The notes under the pieces were generated by a model that had not been told where the DNA came from, did no database searches, and saw only the letters and a list, made by a program, of their open reading frames with translations. A stretch of 56,146 nt of DNA from Bacteroidota bacterium (GTDB lineage Bacteria; Bacteroidota; Rhodothermia; Rhodothermales; Bin80), in contig JAPPNA010000124.1 in NCBI GenBank assembly GCA_028873925.1, positions 1 to 56,146 on the forward strand, read 5' to 3'. Below are positions 23,883 to 38,297 of this stretch, piece by piece; the first letter of the stretch is position 1, and every line of letters starts with the position of its first letter. The position numbers were made by a program, and so were the translations under genes.

Positions 23883-24284
23883 ATGGATTGGTACGCCGAC
23901 ACGCTCTTGGAATTGGAGAAAAAGGACAATCCGTCCGAGGCCGAAGTGCGTGCCCACCTGATTAATCCGGTACTCAGGGATGTTCTAGGGTTCGGCATTG
24001 GCGAAATCGATATGGAGCCTTTCGCCGGGTTGCAACCCGATTATGTGTGCACGCGGTCCGGGTCGTCTTCCGCAGATGTGATTGTAGAGGCCAAGAGACT
24101 GCGGACGGACCTGCTCAGGCGGACTTCGCAAAGCTTCTCCTCCTGCCCGGCCGGTCAGATCCGACGATACCTGAATGATTACCCTGCTGCTGATGAAGGT
24201 ACATGGGGGGGTAGTTACAAACGGATCCAAGTGGATCATCCTCCAGCGAAGAGAGGGACGCGTGCCGCCCACGGCCATTGGTGA
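23883..24284 (+). CDS. Type IIG restriction enzyme, N-terminal nuclease part (frame broken)
   Basis: The first 110 residues hold a PD-(D/E)XK-like endonuclease core: NPVLRDVLGFG, the acidic QPDYVC, and VIVEAKRLRTD with the ExK pair. The frame fails at a run of seven G at 24205-24211. With six G the reading goes GTWGVVTNGSKWIILQRRE, the expected continuation in this family, which is open in the frame seen from 24175. As written, the product ends 24 codons later in out-of-frame sequence. It is therefore the 5' part of one gene ending at 27199. It could be phase variation, true decay or a sequence error. Confidence 0.75.
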   Translation: MDWYADTLLELEKKDNPSEAEVRAHLINPVLRDVLGFGIGEIDMEPFAGLQPDYVCTRSGSSSADVIVEAKRLRTDLLRRTSQSFSSCPAGQIRRYLNDYPAADEGTWGGSYKRIQVDHPPAKRGTRAAHGHW

Positions 24285-27199
24285 ACCCGTGGAGGCCCGC
24301 TCGCTTGACCGGGTCAGTAAACTGCTTTCTCCGGTGCGTGAGCGCGGCAGATTTGGAGGCGAAAGCCAAGCAGATTTCACGGCTGATTGGCTTTCAGTCG
24401 CTGCTAAATGTGCGGATTCTTCCCAATTTGTGCAAGAAATTGCACCGGAGGCCGAAAAAATCGGGGGGCATTGCTACGTTTGCGCAAATGGGCCAATGTC
24501 CTCCTCAACCCGGCGAGTTGTACCCTGAGCCAGTTCACTTGGCGTGCCTGGCGCTCAACTACCCGGATGGACACCTTTCGCCGCAGGACATCGCTGAGGA
24601 GCTTCTGAGGCTGCCCACGCAGGGGCGTGTAGCCGGGGTAGCGTACACGGCAGGTAGCTCTGAGGACGAACGTTACGTCCGCGCCTTCCTGCGGGAAGAC
24701 AGCAAATTGTATTCCACGGCCCTGGTTGATGCCCAGCTACCCGGATCTCGGGCAATACGACAGGCCCGAATTCTGGCACAGAACTATGCCGCACCCACCG
24801 TGACCCAAGCGATTGATGCCCTATCCGCCGAGGCATTACACCGGCGGTTTCATGAGGAAATCAGCACATGGTTCTTGCGCACGGCCCAACGCCGCAATGA
24901 ACTGCGGCATCTGGTTCGCGTGCTGTTCGTCTGGCTGCTGCAGGAGCGGGGCGTGATCCCTGATGATGCCCTTTGGCATCCTGGTATCAATTGGCACATT
25001 CTGCCGGAGGGCTACATCCACGAACACCTTCTGTGGCTGTTTGATAACGCATTGGCCACTCCCTATGAATCCCGGGGACTTGCCGGACCGCGCTGGCCGG
25101 AAGAGTTGCAGCAGACCGTACCCTTCCTGAATGGATCCATGTTTGCCGCACTCAATTCGGAAGATCAGCCCGAAATCCTGACAAACGCGCAGTACGTTGA
25201 TCTTGAACAGGGATTGTTTTCCATTTTGGGCCGCTACGACTGGACGTTAAGCGACCGTACCGGATTTGCCACGGAATCCGCAATAGATGCCTCCATGCTG
25301 GGCGAGCTGTTTGAACGGCTTGTACTGGTAACCGACGGACCCCGCATTGAGCCCGATGGTCATGTAAAGATGCCGGGCGGCACCTACTATACGCCGCAGG
25401 ATATCGCCGACGAGATGGTCACCGATGCGTTGTCAGGATGGACCGAGCGTAGAGTGGGAGAAAGTGCATCCCTGCACGAGCTGTTCCATCCCGCACCCCG
25501 ATCAACGGCGTGGAAGGACTTGCCCCCTGACCAACTCCGTGCTACGCTGAGCGCGCTTACGGACATCGCCATCCTGGATCCCTGTTGCGGAAGCGGCGCA
25601 TTTACGGTAGCTGTGCTCCAGAGCTTGTGGCGTGCCCGGAAGCGAATACACTCTGCACTAAACCCCGGTCAGGACTTGGCGGTGAGCACCGATTCCCTTG
25701 AAGCCATCATTGAGCACAACCTGTTCGCCTCGGATGTTCATCCGCTGGCTGTGCTCATCACGCGGCTGCGAATCTTCATCGCGCTTGTGGATATGCGGCG
25801 AGAGGGCGCAAAGCCACTGCCGAACTTGGATACACGGATCATCGCAGCCGACACCTTATGCATCAATGTAGGGGATAAGCTCTCCATTGGGCCTCCCGAA
25901 ATCAACGAGCTCATGGATGACTGGGGTGCAGTAAGGGAAGCGTGGACCACCGCCCACCGACCGGAGGACAAGAAAGAAACTCTGAAGCTGGATCAGGAGA
26001 CTCGATCCGCCATTCGCGAGAAGGCTGCAGGTTGGGTGCCGGAAAGCGAGCTTGAATGGCTTGACGTTAATCTGCTTTACCCGGCTGCTCCGCCCGCAAG
26101 CATTGATGCCAGATTGGTTTTCCCCAAACCGGATGGTTGGGACATAGTGATCGGCAATCCCCCCTATCAGAAGCCGGACGATGCCGACAAGAATCGCGGC
26201 CGACGGCTGGGCTATTTGGGAGCGCGAACCAATCTCTACCTGATGTTCATTGAGGCAGCGCTGGCAGTCACTCGGCCGGCGGGGTGCGTGACCCTGATTG
26301 TGCCGCACTCGCTCGTGTTTGGGCGTTCACCGAAGGCGTTTAGGCATGTTCGCAACCGAATTGAGCAGTGTTCTCATCGAGTGGATATTCGCACCTACGA
26401 CAACGGACCAAAGCCTGCCTTCCCGAAGTTGCCGTGGCTGAAGCCGGGATCGGGAAATACAAATAGCCAAAGAGTGACGATCGTCCGTGCAATGATCCTG
26501 GAGCACACACGGCAAACCGGCCGGTGCGGTATCTACAGCCGAGGGCTGCTGCGCATGAAGGCCGACTCGCGGCTGAGAATCCTTCGCAGTCGCTCTGAGC
26601 CACAACTTCAATCCAGGATATCCGGCCAGTGGTCTCAGGCACCCACATCCGAATTGGTGCGCCTATTGGAGTCTATCCGTGGTTCTCAGACTATGCCGCC
26701 AAGGGACTGCTTCGTGACCTTCCCACAATCGGCCAGGTACTTCATCACCTGCCTACCTGCGAACCGCTTGAGCAATCCCAGTCGCAAAGAATTTCCACTG
26801 GCGGATGATGAGTTCTACTGGCCGTGGATCGGGCTGTATAATTCTCATGTGTTCCATGCCTACTGGCTGATGACGGGTGACCATTTTCACGTCACATCTA
26901 TTGACATTCAAACCGTACGGGCACCCAGAGGCTGGGAGGACAAGGCGCTGCTGAGCGAAACAGCCGAGTTTGCGCAAGAGCTTACCAGCCCGGCCATGGT
27001 GCAAGAGTGCCGGAATGATTTCACTGGCCGCGATGGAAAGATATTCCCCAACTGTGATTTTCACAGTAATCTGGAAGCGGCAGCGCTGATTGAGGAACTG
27101 GATCGACTCCTGCTGCGCGCGTACGGACTGCCCCCTGAGCCGCTGCTGTCTCAAATGCAGACTATACGGACCGGGAGCGCCCATCAGTTGGCGAGGTAA
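24278..27199 (+). CDS. Type IIG restriction enzyme, methyltransferase and specificity part
   Basis: This 973-codon frame contains an N6-adenine DNA methyltransferase of the Eco57I type. The AdoMet site is LDPCCGSGAF (Asp near residue 434), and the catalytic NPPY is in IGNPPYQKP; helical spacer and C-terminal target-recognition segments follow, to 27199. Its first 60 residues are likely out of frame. The frame from 24175 reads well to QFVQEIAPEAEKIGG, then must lose one base near A6/G6 at about 24456-24470 to enter this frame at IATFAQMGQ. A single polypeptide of about 1100 residues cutting and methylating DNA is the family norm. The AAA+ gene lies 147 bp downstream. Confidence 0.85.
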   Translation: MVNPWRPARLTGSVNCFLRCVSAADLEAKAKQISRLIGFQSLLNVRILPNLCKKLHRRPKKSGGIATFAQMGQCPPQPGELYPEPVHLACLALNYPDGHLSPQDIAEELLRLPTQGRVAGVAYTAGSSEDERYVRAFLREDSKLYSTALVDAQLPGSRAIRQARILAQNYAAPTVTQAIDALSAEALHRRFHEEISTWFLRTAQRRNELRHLVRVLFVWLLQERGVIPDDALWHPGINWHILPEGYIHEHLLWLFDNALATPYESRGLAGPRWPEELQQTVPFLNGSMFAALNSEDQPEILTNAQYVDLEQGLFSILGRYDWTLSDRTGFATESAIDASMLGELFERLVLVTDGPRIEPDGHVKMPGGTYYTPQDIADEMVTDALSGWTERRVGESASLHELFHPAPRSTAWKDLPPDQLRATLSALTDIAILDPCCGSGAFTVAVLQSLWRARKRIHSALNPGQDLAVSTDSLEAIIEHNLFASDVHPLAVLITRLRIFIALVDMRREGAKPLPNLDTRIIAADTLCINVGDKLSIGPPEINELMDDWGAVREAWTTAHRPEDKKETLKLDQETRSAIREKAAGWVPESELEWLDVNLLYPAAPPASIDARLVFPKPDGWDIVIGNPPYQKPDDADKNRGRRLGYLGARTNLYLMFIEAALAVTRPAGCVTLIVPHSLVFGRSPKAFRHVRNRIEQCSHRVDIRTYDNGPKPAFPKLPWLKPGSGNTNSQRVTIVRAMILEHTRQTGRCGIYSRGLLRMKADSRLRILRSRSEPQLQSRISGQWSQAPTSELVRLLESIRGSQTMPPRDCFVTFPQSARYFITCLPANRLSNPSRKEFPLADDEFYWPWIGLYNSHVFHAYWLMTGDHFHVTSIDIQTVRAPRGWEDKALLSETAEFAQELTSPAMVQECRNDFTGRDGKIFPNCDFHSNLEAAALIEELDRLLLRAYGLPPEPLLSQMQTIRTGSAHQLAR

Positions 27200-27345
27200 G
27201 CCGCGAGCCCAACATTCGCGTACCGACCCGGGCCCTGTACCGCTTTGTCTCGGCAAGACCATCCCAACAGGCATGCATCCCCGGGTAGGTACGAACCAGT
27301 CAGCACAGCAGGCGTAAGTCTGCCCCCAAGCCATTAGCACCTACC

Positions 27346-29121
27346 ATGACCGCCAATGCCGGGGCATCTGATCAGGCCGCCGAATTCGCCAGACATACAT
27401 CCCCATATCCGGCCTGGGCCAGAGAACTGGCCCGCAAGTATTTCACCAAGACCCTTAATCAGTTCATCCTGCATGGCAATGTGCGCGATCTCGTGTACTG
27501 GGCCAAGTCCGATACCGAAGTGGCATATGTGGATCTGATCCGCTTCCTGACTGAAGAAATGTTCGCTGCGCGGCATATCGTTGTCAAGATTGACCGTACC
27601 GCGGGCATCCAGTTCTCCACGCCGGAAGGTCAGAAGGATTTCAATCAGGCCATCACCGGATATGATACCCTCTACGGCACCGATTATGGTCGCAGCGCAC
27701 CCCGCAGTCTGTCCCAGATGCTCCGCATACTGGACAATTATTTCAGGCTCTGCCTGCAAAAGGGCAAACGCATTGCATGCATCATCGACTTTGCCGAAAC
27801 CGTTATCCCCATGGCCGAATCGTCCATGTACTCGATGGAGGACCGCAGCACGCTGGTCTGTCTCCAGCGCTGGGCGCATGACGAGCTCTTTCTGCAAAGT
27901 GATTTCACGATCTGCCTGATTGCCGAAAGCCTCAGCAATCTGAACCAGCAGCATGTCCAGAGCCCCTGGACTGCACCCATAGCCATTGACCATCCGGGGA
28001 TGGAAGAGCGGCTGGCGTTTGCCAAATGGTATGTGCGCGACCGGGAAACTACGTTCAAGGCGTTCTCAGACGTTACGCTGGAGAATTTCGCAGAGAATAC
28101 GCCTGGACTCGGCTTTACCCAACTCCGCACCATTCTGGCCGATGTGGTGGAAAACAACAACCGGCTCAACTATGAGCACCTCTCTGAGCTCAAGAAACAG
28201 CTGATTGAGGAATCCGCCGCCGGAATGCTGGAGTTCGTCGAATCCCGCCACACGCTTGATGATGTGGCGGGCCATCAGGAGGCTAAGGAGCATCTGCGGC
28301 AGGTCGCCCGAGCCTTGCGCAACAACAGCCGCGATGTGATCCCGATGGGGTATCTGATCAGTGGACCGGTCGGCACCGGCAAGACTTTCCTGATCACCTG
28401 TTTCTCCGGGGAAATCGGCATTCCCATGGTTAAACTCAAGAACTTCCGCTCCCAGTGGCAGGGGCAAACCGAAGGCAACCTTGAGCGCATTCTACGCTTG
28501 TTGGAGTCCATGCCGCCGGTTGCGGTCATGATTGATGAAGCCGATGCCGCGCTCGGCAATCGGGATGCCCAGGGTGACTCTGGAGTCTCCAAACGGATAT
28601 TCGGGCAGATCGCAACCTTCATGAGCGATCCGTCCCATCGGGGCCGAATAATATTCTTCCTGATCACCGCACGCCCGGACCTGATGCCCGTGGACCTGAA
28701 GCGACAGGGACGGGCGGAAGAACATCTGGCACTCTTCTATCCCACCACCCGGCAGGACCGGCTGGAATTGCTGCATGTTATGATGCGGCGCACCGGCATC
28801 AGTCTGCCGGATGAAGATGTTCCCGACGAATTGCTCAGCGGAGCCGTTACCTACAGTGGAGCAGACATGGAAGCTCTGCTGACTCGAGCCAAATTCAAAG
28901 CCGCCGCTGCAGATCCTCCAATGGACACCGTCACCGCAGCAGTTCTCCGAGAAGCAGTTGAAGACTTCATCCCCCCATCCTACGGGGATGAACAGGAGCT
29001 GCAGGCTCTGGTCGCGGTGCTGGAGAGCACCAGCCGCGAAGCTTTACCCGAATTGTACCGGACCATGAACCGGGCAGAAGTCAGCCGGCGTGCGACGGAA
29101 CTGAAAATTCGCATACCCTGA
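27346..29121 (+). CDS. Ycf46-like AAA+ ATPase with degenerate N-terminal domain
   Basis: This 591-residue protein has one active AAA+ module in its second half. Walker A is GPVGTGKT, the pore region has FRSQWQGQTEGNLERI, Walker B is AVMIDEADAALG, sensor 1 is FFLITARPD, and a lid contains YSGADMEALL. The first about 290 residues look like a second AAA-type domain without Walker A (QFILHGNVRDLV, then ACIIDFAETVIP), as in Ycf46-type proteins. Its cellular job is unknown; such ATPases remodel proteins or complexes. It follows the type IIG gene on the same strand, which may be chance or a functional link. It converges with the MscS gene. Confidence 0.78.
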   Translation: MTANAGASDQAAEFARHTSPYPAWARELARKYFTKTLNQFILHGNVRDLVYWAKSDTEVAYVDLIRFLTEEMFAARHIVVKIDRTAGIQFSTPEGQKDFNQAITGYDTLYGTDYGRSAPRSLSQMLRILDNYFRLCLQKGKRIACIIDFAETVIPMAESSMYSMEDRSTLVCLQRWAHDELFLQSDFTICLIAESLSNLNQQHVQSPWTAPIAIDHPGMEERLAFAKWYVRDRETTFKAFSDVTLENFAENTPGLGFTQLRTILADVVENNNRLNYEHLSELKKQLIEESAAGMLEFVESRHTLDDVAGHQEAKEHLRQVARALRNNSRDVIPMGYLISGPVGTGKTFLITCFSGEIGIPMVKLKNFRSQWQGQTEGNLERILRLLESMPPVAVMIDEADAALGNRDAQGDSGVSKRIFGQIATFMSDPSHRGRIIFFLITARPDLMPVDLKRQGRAEEHLALFYPTTRQDRLELLHVMMRRTGISLPDEDVPDELLSGAVTYSGADMEALLTRAKFKAAAADPPMDTVTAAVLREAVEDFIPPSYGDEQELQALVAVLESTSREALPELYRTMNRAEVSRRATELKIRIP

Positions 29122-32106: not shown

Positions 32107-33195
32107 ATGACTCAGCAGACTTATGCATACGAGCCGGATTATGCCGTACCCCCCGGCTTGGTGCTGGAGGAGCACCTCGAATCGAGGGGATTGTCGCAGG
32201 CGGAATTTGCCCGGCGGTGCGGGAGATCTCCCAAACTGATCAGTGAGATTATCGCGGGCAAGGCCAGGCTGGTGCCCGAGACTGCACTCCAGTTTGAGCG
32301 AGTACTGGGCGTGGATGCCAGCATATGGCTGAATATTGAGTCTACGTATCAAATCCACGCAAGGCGGGAGGCGGAGGCCAAAGCGGCTAAGGCACATCTT
32401 GATTGGGCAAAGCAATTTCCCATAAAGGAACTCGTGCGCCGAGAGATAATCACTCCGGCACAGGACACAGCTGATTACGTCCCTAGGCTCCTGGCATTCC
32501 TGGGAGTGGCTTCTGTTGAGACTTGGAACTCCAGAGTCGCAGCGGCCCAGGTACAGTATCGGCACTCGCCTAGTTTTGAGAGCGGGGAAGCGGTTCTGGC
32601 TGCCTGGCTGCGCTTGGGTGAACTGGAAGCAAAAAAACAACAGTGCGCTACCTTTAACATGCCTAAGACCCGGGAGGCACTGCGGCAAATCCGTACTCTA
32701 ACTCGGCAGACCACGGACTCGGCCATGGCTGCTGCGAAGGAGGCTCTGAATGCGGCGGGAATTGCGTTAGTCGTTGTTAAGCCGTTCTCTGGAATGTCGG
32801 TTAACGGAGCCACATGGTGGCTTTCACCCCAGAAAGCAGTCATTTTGCTCACATTGAGAGGCATGACCAACGACCATGTATGGTTCAGCCTTTTTCACGA
32901 AGCCGCTCATATCCTGCTGCACAGCAAGCGGTTGGTATTTGTTGAGTCGCGCAATGGCCCCGGTGATGAACTTGAACAGGAGGCGGATAAATGGGCAGCA
33001 AACACTCTTATCGGCCCCGCCGCCTGGAGCCGCTTCGTGAATGAGGACGACTTTACTGCACCCGCCGTAAAACGATTTGCCGATCGGCAGGGAATAGCTC
33101 CGTGCATTGTCGCCGGTCGACTCCAGCATGAGAAATTGGTGCCGTATAACCGATTGAACGGCTTGAAAGAGCGCCTTGAATGGACTCAGGCCTAA
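32107..33195 (+). CDS. higA: HigA-type antitoxin fused to an ImmA/IrrE metallopeptidase domain
   Basis: This 362-residue protein begins with a HigA-like XRE helix-turn-helix: PPGLVLEEHLESRGLSQAEF, then CGRSPKLISEIIAGK and ALQFERVLGVDASIWLNIES. A long helical middle leads to a COG2856 peptidase domain with zinc motif HEAAH at 264-268 and acidic residues in DELEQEADKWAAN for the third ligand. Such fusions are known, but most HigA proteins are only about 100 residues. The HTH should neutralise HigB and repress the operon. The peptidase may cleave itself or a regulator after stress, by analogy with ImmA; this is inference. Confidence 0.88.
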   Translation: MTQQTYAYEPDYAVPPGLVLEEHLESRGLSQAEFARRCGRSPKLISEIIAGKARLVPETALQFERVLGVDASIWLNIESTYQIHARREAEAKAAKAHLDWAKQFPIKELVRREIITPAQDTADYVPRLLAFLGVASVETWNSRVAAAQVQYRHSPSFESGEAVLAAWLRLGELEAKKQQCATFNMPKTREALRQIRTLTRQTTDSAMAAAKEALNAAGIALVVVKPFSGMSVNGATWWLSPQKAVILLTLRGMTNDHVWFSLFHEAAHILLHSKRLVFVESRNGPGDELEQEADKWAANTLIGPAAWSRFVNEDDFTAPAVKRFADRQGIAPCIVAGRLQHEKLVPYNRLNGLKERLEWTQA

Positions 33196-33816: not shown

Positions 33817-35595
33817 ATGCGCCTATTCTTTGGGTTTCTGCTGCTTGCGGTGCTGCTACCGCAACAGGCCGCCGCGCAGGTTAACAGCGGGGATGAGGTG
33901 CCGGAGGTTACCCGAACGTTTGCACTGACCAACGCCCGTGTAGTGCAGGCTCCGGGACGGGTCATGGAGCAGGCTACCATCATCGTCCGCGACGGACTCA
34001 TCGCCGCAGTCGGACCTGATATTGAAGTGCCGTTTGATGCGGAGGAGATTCCCGCCGATTCCTTCGTGGTCTACGCGGGCTTTATTGATGGCCTGTCCCA
34101 CACCGGCATCCCTGAACCCCGCGAACAGCGCAATCGCGAGCGCCCGGATGATCCGGGGGATCCACCCAATGAAGAGGCGGGGATTCAGCCGGATCGGGAT
34201 GTGCACGGCCTGCTGGATCCGGAAGACAAACGGCTCGCTGCGCTACGCAATGCGGGCTTCACCACCGTCCATGTGGTGCCGCGCGGTCGCATGCTGCCGG
34301 GAACCGGTGCCATCATTCTGCTCGGCGGTGAAACCGCCAACGAAATGGTCTATCGCGCCCGAACTGCGATGTTCGCACAATTGAGCCCGGCACGACGCAT
34401 GTATCCGGGCACGGATATGGCAGTCATGGCTAAACTGCGGCAGCTGTTTACCGAAGCCAAACGGCGACAGCACCTTCAGAATCTCTATTCGGAAGATCCG
34501 GCCGGGCTTGAGCGTCCCCCGTTTGATCCGGTTCATAACTCCCTCCTGCCTGTATTGCGTGAGGAACTGCCGGTGTATTTCCATACGCAGAGCGCGCTGG
34601 ATTTGCACCGTGCACTGGAAGTGCAGTCAGAGCTGGGCTTCCCGGTGGTATTGACCGGGCTTAACCAGAGTTTTGACGCTGTTGACAAACTCCGGCAGGC
34701 CGGACATGCACTCATACTGACGCTGGATCTGCCGGTGATCCCAGGGACTTCCGAATCTTATGAAGAGACTCCAGCCGATTCCGTGGCGGCACCGCCGACG
34801 GATGCGCCGGAAAAACTGCCCGAAATCGCGGACCCCGGATATGACACTAACCTGCGTGTTCAATCCCAGGCTGACCTGGAGGCGGAAAAGGCCAATCTGG
34901 AAAAACGTCGCGAAATTGAGCACAGGAAATATCTGGCCAATGCGGCGGACCTCGCCTCCTCCGGACTGGCATTCGGCTTCTCCACATTAGGAGTCAAGCC
35001 CGCCGATCTTATGGGTAATGTACGCCTGATGATCGACAACGGCCTGTCCGAGGATGCCGCCTTAGCTGCCCTGACCACCACCGCAGCCGACATCCTGGGG
35101 GTCGCGGCCAGTATGGGTACGGTGGAGGTCGGCAAAATGGCCAACTTGGTCGTGGCAGATGGGCCTGTGTTTGAGGAAAAGTCCAAAATCAAATATGTAT
35201 TCGTAGATGGCAAACGTTTTGAGGTGGAACAGCCCGCACGATCCGGCCGCCAGGGGCGCGGGGATCAAGCCGACCTTTCACCCGCCGGACGATGGTCATT
35301 CACCGTGTCCAGCGAAGATGGCAATGTCGGAGGTACCATTACGATCGATGGATCCGCCACCAATTGGTCCGGCACCATTACCAACGACCTAACCGATGAG
35401 ACTGCGGATCTGACCAATATCCGGTTGGATGGCAGATCGCTGAGCTTTGAATTCAGCCTCCCCGAATTGGGCACCATCAGCGTGTCTGTCGTCGTCAGCG
35501 AAGACTCCTTTGATGGCGATGTTACCGTTGAAGGAATCGGTGCCATGCCCATAAGCGGCAGCCGTACATCCGGCCCTGAATCATACCACCCGTAA
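33817..35595 (+). CDS. Exported amidohydrolase-like protein lacking the HxH metal motif
   Basis: This 592-residue protein has a signal peptide (RLFFGFLLLAVLLPQQAAA) and an imidazolonepropionase-like amidohydrolase body, with the usual small N-terminal beta domain (TNARVVQAPGR, IIVRDGLIAAVGPDIEV). Where active members have DxHxH after strand 1, it has FIDGLSHTGIP, so the first metal histidine is missing. The C-terminal part of the barrel is clear: AADILGVAASMGTVEVGKMA. After it comes an extra beta-rich domain of about 115 residues (WSFTVSSEDGNVGGTITIDG). It is first of three paralogues in one operon. A structural or binding role, or a changed metal site, is possible. Confidence 0.82.
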   Translation: MRLFFGFLLLAVLLPQQAAAQVNSGDEVPEVTRTFALTNARVVQAPGRVMEQATIIVRDGLIAAVGPDIEVPFDAEEIPADSFVVYAGFIDGLSHTGIPEPREQRNRERPDDPGDPPNEEAGIQPDRDVHGLLDPEDKRLAALRNAGFTTVHVVPRGRMLPGTGAIILLGGETANEMVYRARTAMFAQLSPARRMYPGTDMAVMAKLRQLFTEAKRRQHLQNLYSEDPAGLERPPFDPVHNSLLPVLREELPVYFHTQSALDLHRALEVQSELGFPVVLTGLNQSFDAVDKLRQAGHALILTLDLPVIPGTSESYEETPADSVAAPPTDAPEKLPEIADPGYDTNLRVQSQADLEAEKANLEKRREIEHRKYLANAADLASSGLAFGFSTLGVKPADLMGNVRLMIDNGLSEDAALAALTTTAADILGVAASMGTVEVGKMANLVVADGPVFEEKSKIKYVFVDGKRFEVEQPARSGRQGRGDQADLSPAGRWSFTVSSEDGNVGGTITIDGSATNWSGTITNDLTDETADLTNIRLDGRSLSFEFSLPELGTISVSVVVSEDSFDGDVTVEGIGAMPISGSRTSGPESYHP

Positions 35596-35614
35596 TGATA
35601 GCCCGCCAATACTC

Positions 35615-36985
35615 ATGAAGAGACTTATTGCATTTCTTTGCCTTTACGCACTGATGGCTGGCAGCATGCGGGCGCAGACCCCTACCGGGGATGTGCTGGT
35701 ACGCAACGCAACCGTACTCACCGTGACGCAGGGGACCCTGGAGTCTACCGATATCCTGGTGCGTGATGGCATTATTGCTGCAGTGGGTGAGAATCTCAGT
35801 GCCCCTTCGGATGTGCCCGTCATTGAGGCTTCAGGCCACTATGTGATGCCCGGCATTATTGATGCGCACTCGCATATCGGCATCAGCAATGTCAACGAAA
35901 GCAGTGCACCGGTGACTGCGCAGGTCTCTGTCGGAGATGTGCTTAATCCGTACAGCATTTCGATTTACCGCGCACTGGCGGGCGGCGTGACCACCTCCCA
36001 TGTCATGCACGGCTCGGCCAATGTGATCGGCGGACAAAACGAAACCATCAAGCATCGCTGGGGCATCATTGATCCGGAGGAGCTGCGCATGGCGGGTGCG
36101 CCGCGCACCATTAAGTTCGCGCTTGGAGAAAACCCCACCCGGGTCCATGGACGGGGCACCGGCAAACGCCCTGCCTCCAGAATGGGGGTGGAGTATGTGC
36201 TGAGGGAAACGCTGACCAAGGCTCAGCGCTATCAGGAAGAATGGAACCGGTACGAACAGGAAGTGCGCACCAATCCCCGTGCGGTGTCCCCAGCCTATAA
36301 TGGCCAACTGGAGGTAATGAGCGATATCCTAAACGGCGATATTCTCATTAACTGTCACTCGTATCGTGCGGATGAAATCCTGATGCTCATGGATGTGCTG
36401 AAGGATTTCGGGATCCAACACATTACTTTCCAGCATGTCAACGAAGGCTTCAAGATTGCGCCGGAGCTGGCCGAATTCGGAGCGTACGCCTCCATATTCG
36501 CCGACTGGTGGGCCTATAAGTTTGAAGTCTACTATTCCACCGCCTACAACGCGGCGATCCTTACGCGCAATGGCGTTCTAACTTCAATCAATTCAGACTC
36601 CGGCGAACTGAACCGCCATCTGTACCATGAGGCCGCCAAATCCCAGAAATACGGCGGACTGTCGGATGATGAAGCGCTAGCGTTAATCACCATTAATCCG
36701 GCCCGCCAGTTGGGGATTGACGAGCGGGTGGGATCCATTGAGGTGGGCAAGGATGGCGATCTGGCCATCTTTGACCGCCATCCGCTGTCTGTCTATGCCG
36801 TAAACCGCCACACGATAGTAGATGGGATCCCCTACTTCAATGCCGACCGCGATGCGGACGATATGAGGCTGGCCGTAGACCCGGAGTCACGGATCGACAC
36901 GGTCATCCTGCATGACCATCACGATGACCACCTCTGCCTTCATGAAGGTGAGCTTGATCTTTACGATTTCCTGACCAACCACTAA
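35615..36985 (+). CDS. Exported amidohydrolase with intact metal site
   Basis: This 456-residue protein has a signal peptide (LIAFLCLYALMAGSMRA) and a complete amidohydrolase barrel. Metal ligands are visible: IIDAHSHIGI (83-90), INCHSYRADEIL, ITFQHVNEGF, and the late Asp in SINSDSGELNRH. The C-terminal INPARQLGIDERVGSIEVGK is the standard family close. It belongs with imidazolonepropionase-related periplasmic hydrolases; some act on cyclic dipeptides or acyl amino acids, but the substrate here is not readable. The gene starts 19 bp after the first paralogue and ends 1 bp before the third. Confidence 0.86.
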   Translation: MKRLIAFLCLYALMAGSMRAQTPTGDVLVRNATVLTVTQGTLESTDILVRDGIIAAVGENLSAPSDVPVIEASGHYVMPGIIDAHSHIGISNVNESSAPVTAQVSVGDVLNPYSISIYRALAGGVTTSHVMHGSANVIGGQNETIKHRWGIIDPEELRMAGAPRTIKFALGENPTRVHGRGTGKRPASRMGVEYVLRETLTKAQRYQEEWNRYEQEVRTNPRAVSPAYNGQLEVMSDILNGDILINCHSYRADEILMLMDVLKDFGIQHITFQHVNEGFKIAPELAEFGAYASIFADWWAYKFEVYYSTAYNAAILTRNGVLTSINSDSGELNRHLYHEAAKSQKYGGLSDDEALALITINPARQLGIDERVGSIEVGKDGDLAIFDRHPLSVYAVNRHTIVDGIPYFNADRDADDMRLAVDPESRIDTVILHDHHDDHLCLHEGELDLYDFLTNH

Positions 36986-36986
36986 G

Positions 36987-38297
36987 ATGCGTGGACTTCT
37001 GTCTCTGATTTTCGCAGCGTCTGCGCTGCTGTCCGTGCTGAATCACGAGTTCCAGGAGAACTTCACGGCGCTGACCAATGCCCGCGTGGTAACCATCACA
37101 CAAGGGGTCATCGAAAACGGTACGGTCCTCATGGAGGGAGACCGGATTGTAGCCATTGGGACTGATGTTGAGGTTCCGGCGGGTGCTCGAATTATTGACT
37201 GCACCGGCATGACCGTTTATCCGGGAATGATTGATTCCGGTACACAGATGGGGCTCGTTGAAGTCGGATCATTGAGTGAAACGCGTGACAACACGGAATT
37301 GGGCACGCTGTCGCCCCAGATGAAAGCCCTGACCGCGGTTAATCCCAATGGGGTTGCGATTCCGGTCACGCGTGTCAATGGGGTCACTACTGTCCTCACG
37401 GAGCCATCCGGCGGCATGCTGCCGGGGCAGGCTGCGCTGATAAACCTGCATGGGTATACGCCGAGTCAGATGTTTGCCGGATTTGAAGGAATCAGCATGC
37501 AGTTTCCGGCCACCGGACGAAGGGGGCGGTTTGATCAGCGTACCGATGAGCAGGTTCAGGAAGCCACCGAAAAAGCCCTCAAATTGCTCAATGATACTTG
37601 GAACAGTGCCGAACTGCACAGCCGAATTGACTCCACATATCAGGCTCGCCCTGAGTCAGGCCGCAAACCGGCCTACGTACCATCCATGGAAGCTCTGCGC
37701 CCTGTGGTTCGGGGCCAACAGGCCCTGGTCATAAGCGTCAATGCGGCCCGGGATATCCTGGCGGCCATTGAATGGGTCAAGGAACGCGGACTTCGGAATG
37801 TGATCTTTACCGGACTGTCTGAAGGCTGGCGAGTGGCCGACCAGATTGCGGAAGCCGGCATCCCGTGCCTGGTAGGTCCCGTACTGTCGGTGCCGACGCG
37901 GCCCAGCGACCGGTTTGACAAGGCCTACAGGAATGCGGCGCTCATGCACGCAGCCGGAGTGAAGATTGCTATCCGGTCCGGTGAGACAGCGAACGCCCGT
38001 AACCTACCTTACAACGCGGGCTTTGCGGTGGCCTATGGGCTGCCGTACGAAGAAGCGCTTCGCGCTGTTACCATTAATCCCGCCGAAATATTCGGGGTGG
38101 ATGACCGGCTGGGCTCTCTGGAGGCCGGAAAGGAAGCCACGCTGTTTATCGCGGATGGCGATCCGTTTGAGACCTCCACCACAATTCACCATGTGTTTAT
38201 CGGGGGTTATCAGATCTCAATGGAGAGTCGGCATACCCAACTGTACGAGGAATTCCTCAACCGATCGCCCGGCTTGGAAAACCGCGATGGTCCCTGA
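36987..38297 (+). CDS. Exported amidohydrolase-like protein lacking the HxH metal motif
   Basis: This 436-residue protein has a short hydrophobic N-terminus (LLSLIFAASALLSVL) that serves as a signal or anchor. The family fold is clear from TNARVVTITQGVIENGTVLM, DRIVAIGTDVEVPAG and the closing INPAEIFGVDDRLGSLEAGK. At the metal site it reads MIDSGTQMGLVE instead of DxHxH, and the usual later histidines are also missing. It is thus a likely pseudoenzyme or an enzyme with other chemistry. It starts 1 bp after the middle paralogue, so the two are translationally coupled and may form a hetero-oligomer. Confidence 0.82.
   Translation: MRGLLSLIFAASALLSVLNHEFQENFTALTNARVVTITQGVIENGTVLMEGDRIVAIGTDVEVPAGARIIDCTGMTVYPGMIDSGTQMGLVEVGSLSETRDNTELGTLSPQMKALTAVNPNGVAIPVTRVNGVTTVLTEPSGGMLPGQAALINLHGYTPSQMFAGFEGISMQFPATGRRGRFDQRTDEQVQEATEKALKLLNDTWNSAELHSRIDSTYQARPESGRKPAYVPSMEALRPVVRGQQALVISVNAARDILAAIEWVKERGLRNVIFTGLSEGWRVADQIAEAGIPCLVGPVLSVPTRPSDRFDKAYRNAALMHAAGVKIAIRSGETANARNLPYNAGFAVAYGLPYEEALRAVTINPAEIFGVDDRLGSLEAGKEATLFIADGDPFETSTTIHHVFIGGYQISMESRHTQLYEEFLNRSPGLENRDGP

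Follow-up and report, generated by a model that had tools for sequence, protein, structure and literature searches.

A catalytic amidohydrolase and two pseudoenzyme siblings as probable subunits of one exported complex in Bacteroidota

The window analyzed here is the whole 56,146-nucleotide stretch of contig JAPPNA010000124.1, from a Bacteroidota bacterium of the order Rhodothermales. It carries three consecutive genes for amidohydrolase-fold proteins, called P1, P2 and P3 below (Table 1), and it raises the question of what two relatives lacking the metal motif do on either side of an apparently intact enzyme. A sequence-only reading of the window described three exported proteins of the same fold encoded 19 and 1 bp apart, and this description agrees with the open reading frames, Pfam scores, PDB matches and N termini. 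Between the end of P1 (35595) and the start of P2 (35615) lie 19 bp, and between the end of P2 (36985) and the start of P3 (36987) lies 1 bp. The Amidohydro_1 (PF01979) scores of P1, P2 and P3 are 38.7, 67.6 and 51.3 bits, respectively, all above the gathering cut-off of 25. The top PDB relative of all three is 3ooq, an amidohydrolase of Thermotoga maritima. P2 matches it by sequence (E 9.1e-59), and the AF2 models of P1 (mean pLDDT 87.1) and P3 (mean pLDDT 82.5) both match it with a TM of about 0.85 by target length. All three proteins in the window start with hydrophobic, export-like N termini. Among relatives, a hydropathy rule, used in place of a trained signal-peptide predictor, finds such N termini in 112 of 116 P1, 122 of 124 P2 and 115 of 115 P3 proteins. 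The four low-scoring P1 rows lack part of the N terminus; one low-scoring P2 row (L155) lies within a fused frame, and the second (L165) just scores low.

Table 1. Coordinates in the window of the three genes, the P1 beta domain and the metal-site positions.
Feature	Coordinates	Strand	Description	Evidence
P1	33817..35595	+	592 aa; predicted amidohydrolase-fold pseudoenzyme, exported	ORF, Amidohydro_1, AF2 model, metal positions
P2	35615..36985	+	456 aa; predicted catalytic amidohydrolase, exported	ORF, Amidohydro_1, 3ooq match, ligand set
P3	36987..38297	+	436 aa; predicted amidohydrolase-fold pseudoenzyme, exported	ORF, Amidohydro_1, AF2 model, metal positions
P1 C-terminal beta domain	35284..35571	+	residues ~490-585	nine strands predicted between 491 and 585 (AF2 model)
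P1 DGLSH	34087..34101	+	degenerate HxH, residues 91-95	first His missing in 46/46 P1 rows of the order
P2 DAHSH	35861..35875	+	HxH metal motif, H85 and H87	invariant across P2 rows
P2 K167	36113..36115	+		K167 and E172 present in 126/126 P2 rows (order rows and 80 named loci)
P2 H248	36356..36358	+	metal ligand	invariant across P2 rows
P2 H274	36434..36436	+	metal ligand	Gly in 46/46 P1 and 43/44 P3 rows of the order
P2 D328	36596..36598	+	metal-site Asp	invariant across P2 rows
P3 DSGTQ	37233..37247	+	degenerate HxH, residues 83-87	first His is Gly in 44/44 P3 rows of the order

The extra C-terminal beta domain ascribed to P1 is real, as judged from its predicted strands, and has no match in Pfam. 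It is also dispensable: several short P1 orthologues of only ~465-505 aa do without it. The C terminus of P2 (36911-36982) is a His/Asp-rich tail with a Cys (HDHHDDHLCLHEGE). The family consensus has a recurring His and Cys there, and the tail may bind metal.

The metal site of a catalytic amidohydrolase consists of HxH, a strand-4 Lys, His, His and Asp. This set is found in P2 and is missing from P1 and P3. The motifs DGLSH (P1), DAHSH (P2) and DSGTQ (P3) stand in the sequence as the first reading gave them. In an alignment over the order (46 P1, 46 P2 and 44 P3 rows from 45 trio loci and the window, with L047-L050 and L080-L090 left out of the ligand table), P2 has H85, H87, H248, H274 and D328 in every row and K146 in 45 of 46. 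K167 is likely the strand-4 metal-bridging lysine, presumably carboxylated as in related prolidases. The widest ligand table combined the order rows with 80 named loci (the best 80 of 590 confirmed matches) and 20 further regions, two partial domains of the N-interrupted region L171 being kept among its rows. Six positions were scored: H85, H87, K167, H248, H274 and D328. They are complete in 139 of 140 P2 rows, and the remaining row is cut by N. P1 retains zero to three of the six over 134 rows (three in two rows only), and P3 zero to two over 135 rows. In the window these positions read LHQHGL in P1 and GQQSGG in P3, versus HHKHHD in P2.

If P1 or P3, or both, were enzymes in their own right, they would have to work through another site or a rearranged metal center. 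P3 does have conserved patches (EGWRV and N-R-N), and the second His of HxH is kept in 37 of the 46 P1 rows of the order. We nevertheless consider this very unlikely, since no replacement ligand set is conserved over the 134 P1 or the 135 P3 rows. The loss of the metal site from both outer proteins, claimed at first from the motifs, is borne out by this alignment, and the assignment of P1 and P3 as pseudoenzymes is well supported at the sequence level. The Pfam-level label "amidohydrolase" suits all three proteins and masks the loss of the metal site in two of them.

Trio genes are inherited together, in a nearly all-or-none fashion. Of 59 genomes related to that of the window, 45 carry the complete trio and 10 carry no part of it; by the matches listed, P1, P2 and P3 have 47, 46 and 45 strong matches, respectively. 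Two genomes have a partial set, one without P3 (G034) and one without P2 and P3 (G020), and in both the contig ends beside the gene that is present. A third (G049) has a divergent P1-P2 fusion with P3 (L047), and in a fourth (G030) a P2-like and a P3-like gene form a divergent pair without a neighboring P1 (L048). The trio was first thought to be unusual. It proved to be widespread: in a sample of the phylum, P2 was detected in 108 of 198 genomes with E 2e-140 or better, and one further genome (G064) has a partly masked P2. P1-profile and P3-profile matches are present in all 108 genomes. The P1 E-value alone cannot separate P1 from P3 cross-matches; therefore a sample of regions was read directly. 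Twenty regions were fetched and 19 counted, L171 being left out because of a long N stretch. Thirteen of the 19 have a P1-P2 frame, with P3 adjoining in seven; the other six were chosen for an unlinked P3, and P3 was confirmed in all six.

Of the 80 named loci, 74 have a detected P1 and 78 a detected P3. Four of the six loci without P1 (L104, L138, L145 and L151) are at contig ends, and in the other two (L144 and L170) the homologue present scores nearer to P3. Both loci without P3 (L114 and L117) are at contig ends. Every gap in the 80 loci is thus at a contig end or occupied by a divergent homologue. These records are labeled Bacteroidota, Balneolota, Acidobacteriota, Planctomycetota, Gemmatimonadota, Ignavibacteria and, once, Actinomycetota; single phylum labels may be wrong because the non-Bacteroidota records are metagenome assemblies. 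Frequent loss of the outer genes, which would have counted against a functional trio, was not seen among the relatives: P1 and P3 are almost never lost while P2 stays, the exception being the pair without P1 in G030. Joint inheritance of the three genes is well supported by these comparisons. The gene arrangement is not due to chance, since genomes throughout the order, and in other phyla too, show the same gene order and ligand pattern. With each gene taken to begin at its first possible start codon, the median gaps in 65 three-gene loci are 3 and 11 bp. Promoter and terminator scans gave counts no greater than in shuffled sequences.

P3 is also kept where it is not adjacent. In 12 genomes of the phylum sample, all with a long P2 frame, P3 is on another contig or far off, and another contig of a draft assembly does not by itself prove distance. 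In six of the 12 (L173-L184), other genes surround both the P1-P2 fusion and P3. Strict co-translation is therefore not needed.

A quick tree was built from 28 hand-picked loci per role and the paralogous pairs, and was midpoint-rooted for drawing. P1, P2 and P3 form one separate, old clade each (SH-aLRT 98-100). Like subgroups recur in the three clades (for example L162 with L168, L150 with L164, and L158 with L163 and L166), which is consistent with inheritance as a unit. 3ooq, which shows the P2 ligand pattern in the alignment, adjoins P2 in the tree. The paralogous pair, which several genomes of the order carry at another locus (L049, L050 and L080-L090), forms two more clades; its first member has an intact metal set and its second is degenerate. 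An active-plus-dead pairing therefore arose, or was kept, more than once.

Pairwise dN/dS values within one genus, taken only where dS was unsaturated, are 0.065-0.14 for P1, 0.03-0.14 for P2 and 0.04-0.14 for P3, a sign of purifying selection on both predicted dead members. Divergence is faster in P1 than in P2. The loss of catalytic residues might suggest that P1 and P3 are decaying paralogues on their way out of these genomes. Such decay was dropped as an explanation, being contradicted by the selection and distribution data and hardly credible with dN/dS of about 0.04-0.14, with P1 and P3 orthologues across the order that are 34-80% identical to the window proteins, and with both genes retained in records of several phyla.

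Natural fusions bear on whether the proteins associate. P2 lies inside a frame of ~980-1165 aa in 57 of the 108 phylum-sample genomes, and in all 13 unmasked frames read in detail (991-1142 aa) P1 is fused to P2. Among the loci, P1-P2 fusions are found in L047 and L162, and in L155, where the frame begins at the edge of a contig; P2-P3 fusions are found in L150, L152, L156, L168 and L170. L164 encodes P1-P2-P3 in a single 1385-aa frame. The fused P1-P2 label requires at least three changes on the P2 tree (a change being a fusion or a split), and P2-P3 fusions fall in four separate places on the same tree, by eye. Each of the eight fused proteins examined begins with an export-like segment and shows no further one where its domains join; all domains therefore reach the same compartment. 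Fusion in every adjacent combination is strong indirect evidence, read from the gene sequences, for physical association of P1, P2 and P3, and a complex is the most economical account of it. P1 and P3 might instead be neofunctionalized binding or sensory proteins, exported and serving P2's pathway with no complex, so that clustering would reflect co-regulation. The 12 genomes with unlinked P3 and the faster divergence of P1 would suit such a role; the fusions, the three-in-one protein included, are hard to explain without proximity of the partners, and we judge this alternative unlikely.

We consider it quite probable that P1, P2 and P3 are subunits of a single exported metallo-amidohydrolase, a hetero-oligomer in which one kind of subunit is catalytic and two are pseudoenzymes. 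P2, with the sole metal site (HxH, Lys, His, His and Asp), would carry out hydrolysis in the periplasm. P1 and P3 would share its fold ancestry, have lost the metal site and be retained as dedicated partners, taking the place of identical neighbors in the oligomer. They may keep P2 stable and help to form or gate the pocket for its substrate. From the patterns above we infer that the proteins physically assemble, at a ratio close to 1:1:1, and that the dead subunits have this role. With somewhat less confidence, we favor an ancient and effectively obligate exported complex in which P2 sits between two pseudoenzyme siblings that form part of the substrate chamber, present in records of several phyla and occasionally made as a single three-barrel protein. 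If this is correct, it would be, to our knowledge, the first amidohydrolase with two distinct dead subunits. No description of the trio was found in searches of an open-access library without most subscription journals.

Known systems resemble the trio in part. 3ooq differs from it in being a single gene product in its entry, the title of which states no function, and we know of no partner for it. Partners are not required by the fold, because 3ooq was crystallized from one gene product. The COG1228-type prolidases, the L-Lys/L-Arg carboxypeptidases (for example Cc2672, 3mtw) and the ochratoxin amidohydrolases (for example ADH3, 8ihs) have the same fold as the trio and share the overall ligand scheme of P2. 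By the entry titles, their substrates are peptides or N-acyl-amino acids. Unlike the trio, they have a single active subunit type as far as we know. Pseudo-dihydroorotase and ATCase, in contrast to the trio, belong to a cytosolic pathway. In the Pseudomonas aeruginosa ATCase complex, as reported in PMC7053772, an inactive amidohydrolase-fold pseudo-dihydroorotase is needed for the activity of its partner enzyme. It differs from the trio in that the partner is an unrelated transcarbamoylase and in that there is one pseudoenzyme instead of two (PMC7053772). M16B peptidases and the mitochondrial processing peptidase combine an active and a homologous metal-less subunit, encoded by separate genes or in one chain (PMC12731061). 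The trio has the same arrangement, with inactive homologues of the catalytic subunit encoded alongside it or fused to it. The M16B fold is unrelated and has two halves, not three (PMC12731061), and we do not claim membership for the trio. Separate, two-way fused and three-way fused versions exist in nature, and the role of a pseudoenzyme partner is directly testable with them. If the three proteins do form one complex, single-gene functional screens would miss the activity of a family whose P2 is this widespread (108 of 198 genomes).

The substrate is the weakest step of the proposed explanation. Neighbors of the trio differ between phyla; those in the window's order, judged by eye and not by family search, resemble housekeeping genes. 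Twelve Cyclobacteriaceae-type loci (L097, L106, L111, L112, L119, L121, L125, L127, L128, L130, L136 and L142) encode an SH3-domain NlpC/P60 protein after the trio, in the same orientation and with gaps of 15-223 bp, and in 10 of them the next gene encodes an M28 peptidase. Five loci belonging to a different family have a gamma-glutamyltranspeptidase after the trio, and in L176 the unlinked P3 is followed by genes for S9 and M1 peptidases. These peptidase neighbors are lineage-restricted. The linkage of exported peptidases to the trio in some lineages suggests peptides as substrate; we propose with low confidence that P2 acts on peptides or amino-acid amides, perhaps on cell-wall-derived peptides. 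Two specific identities for P2 were dropped on NCBIfam scores. The Xaa-Pro dipeptidase model NF051886 (cut-off 500 bits) gave 41.7, 44.5 and 57.2 bits for P1, P2 and P3, and the imidazolonepropionase model TIGR01224 (cut-off 298.15 bits) gave 32.7, 46.1 and 47.0 bits.

Other genes in the window include a leucine-rich-repeat protein (343-2022) with a weak, below-cut-off match to a secretion-system C-terminal sorting domain. A helix-turn-helix and IrrE-like (Peptidase_M78) protein is encoded directly upstream of the trio (32107-33195), and further upstream there is an Eco57I-like methylase followed by an AAA ATPase (24278-29121). In the order, a gene of ATPase-like appearance is often found upstream of the trio (32 loci).
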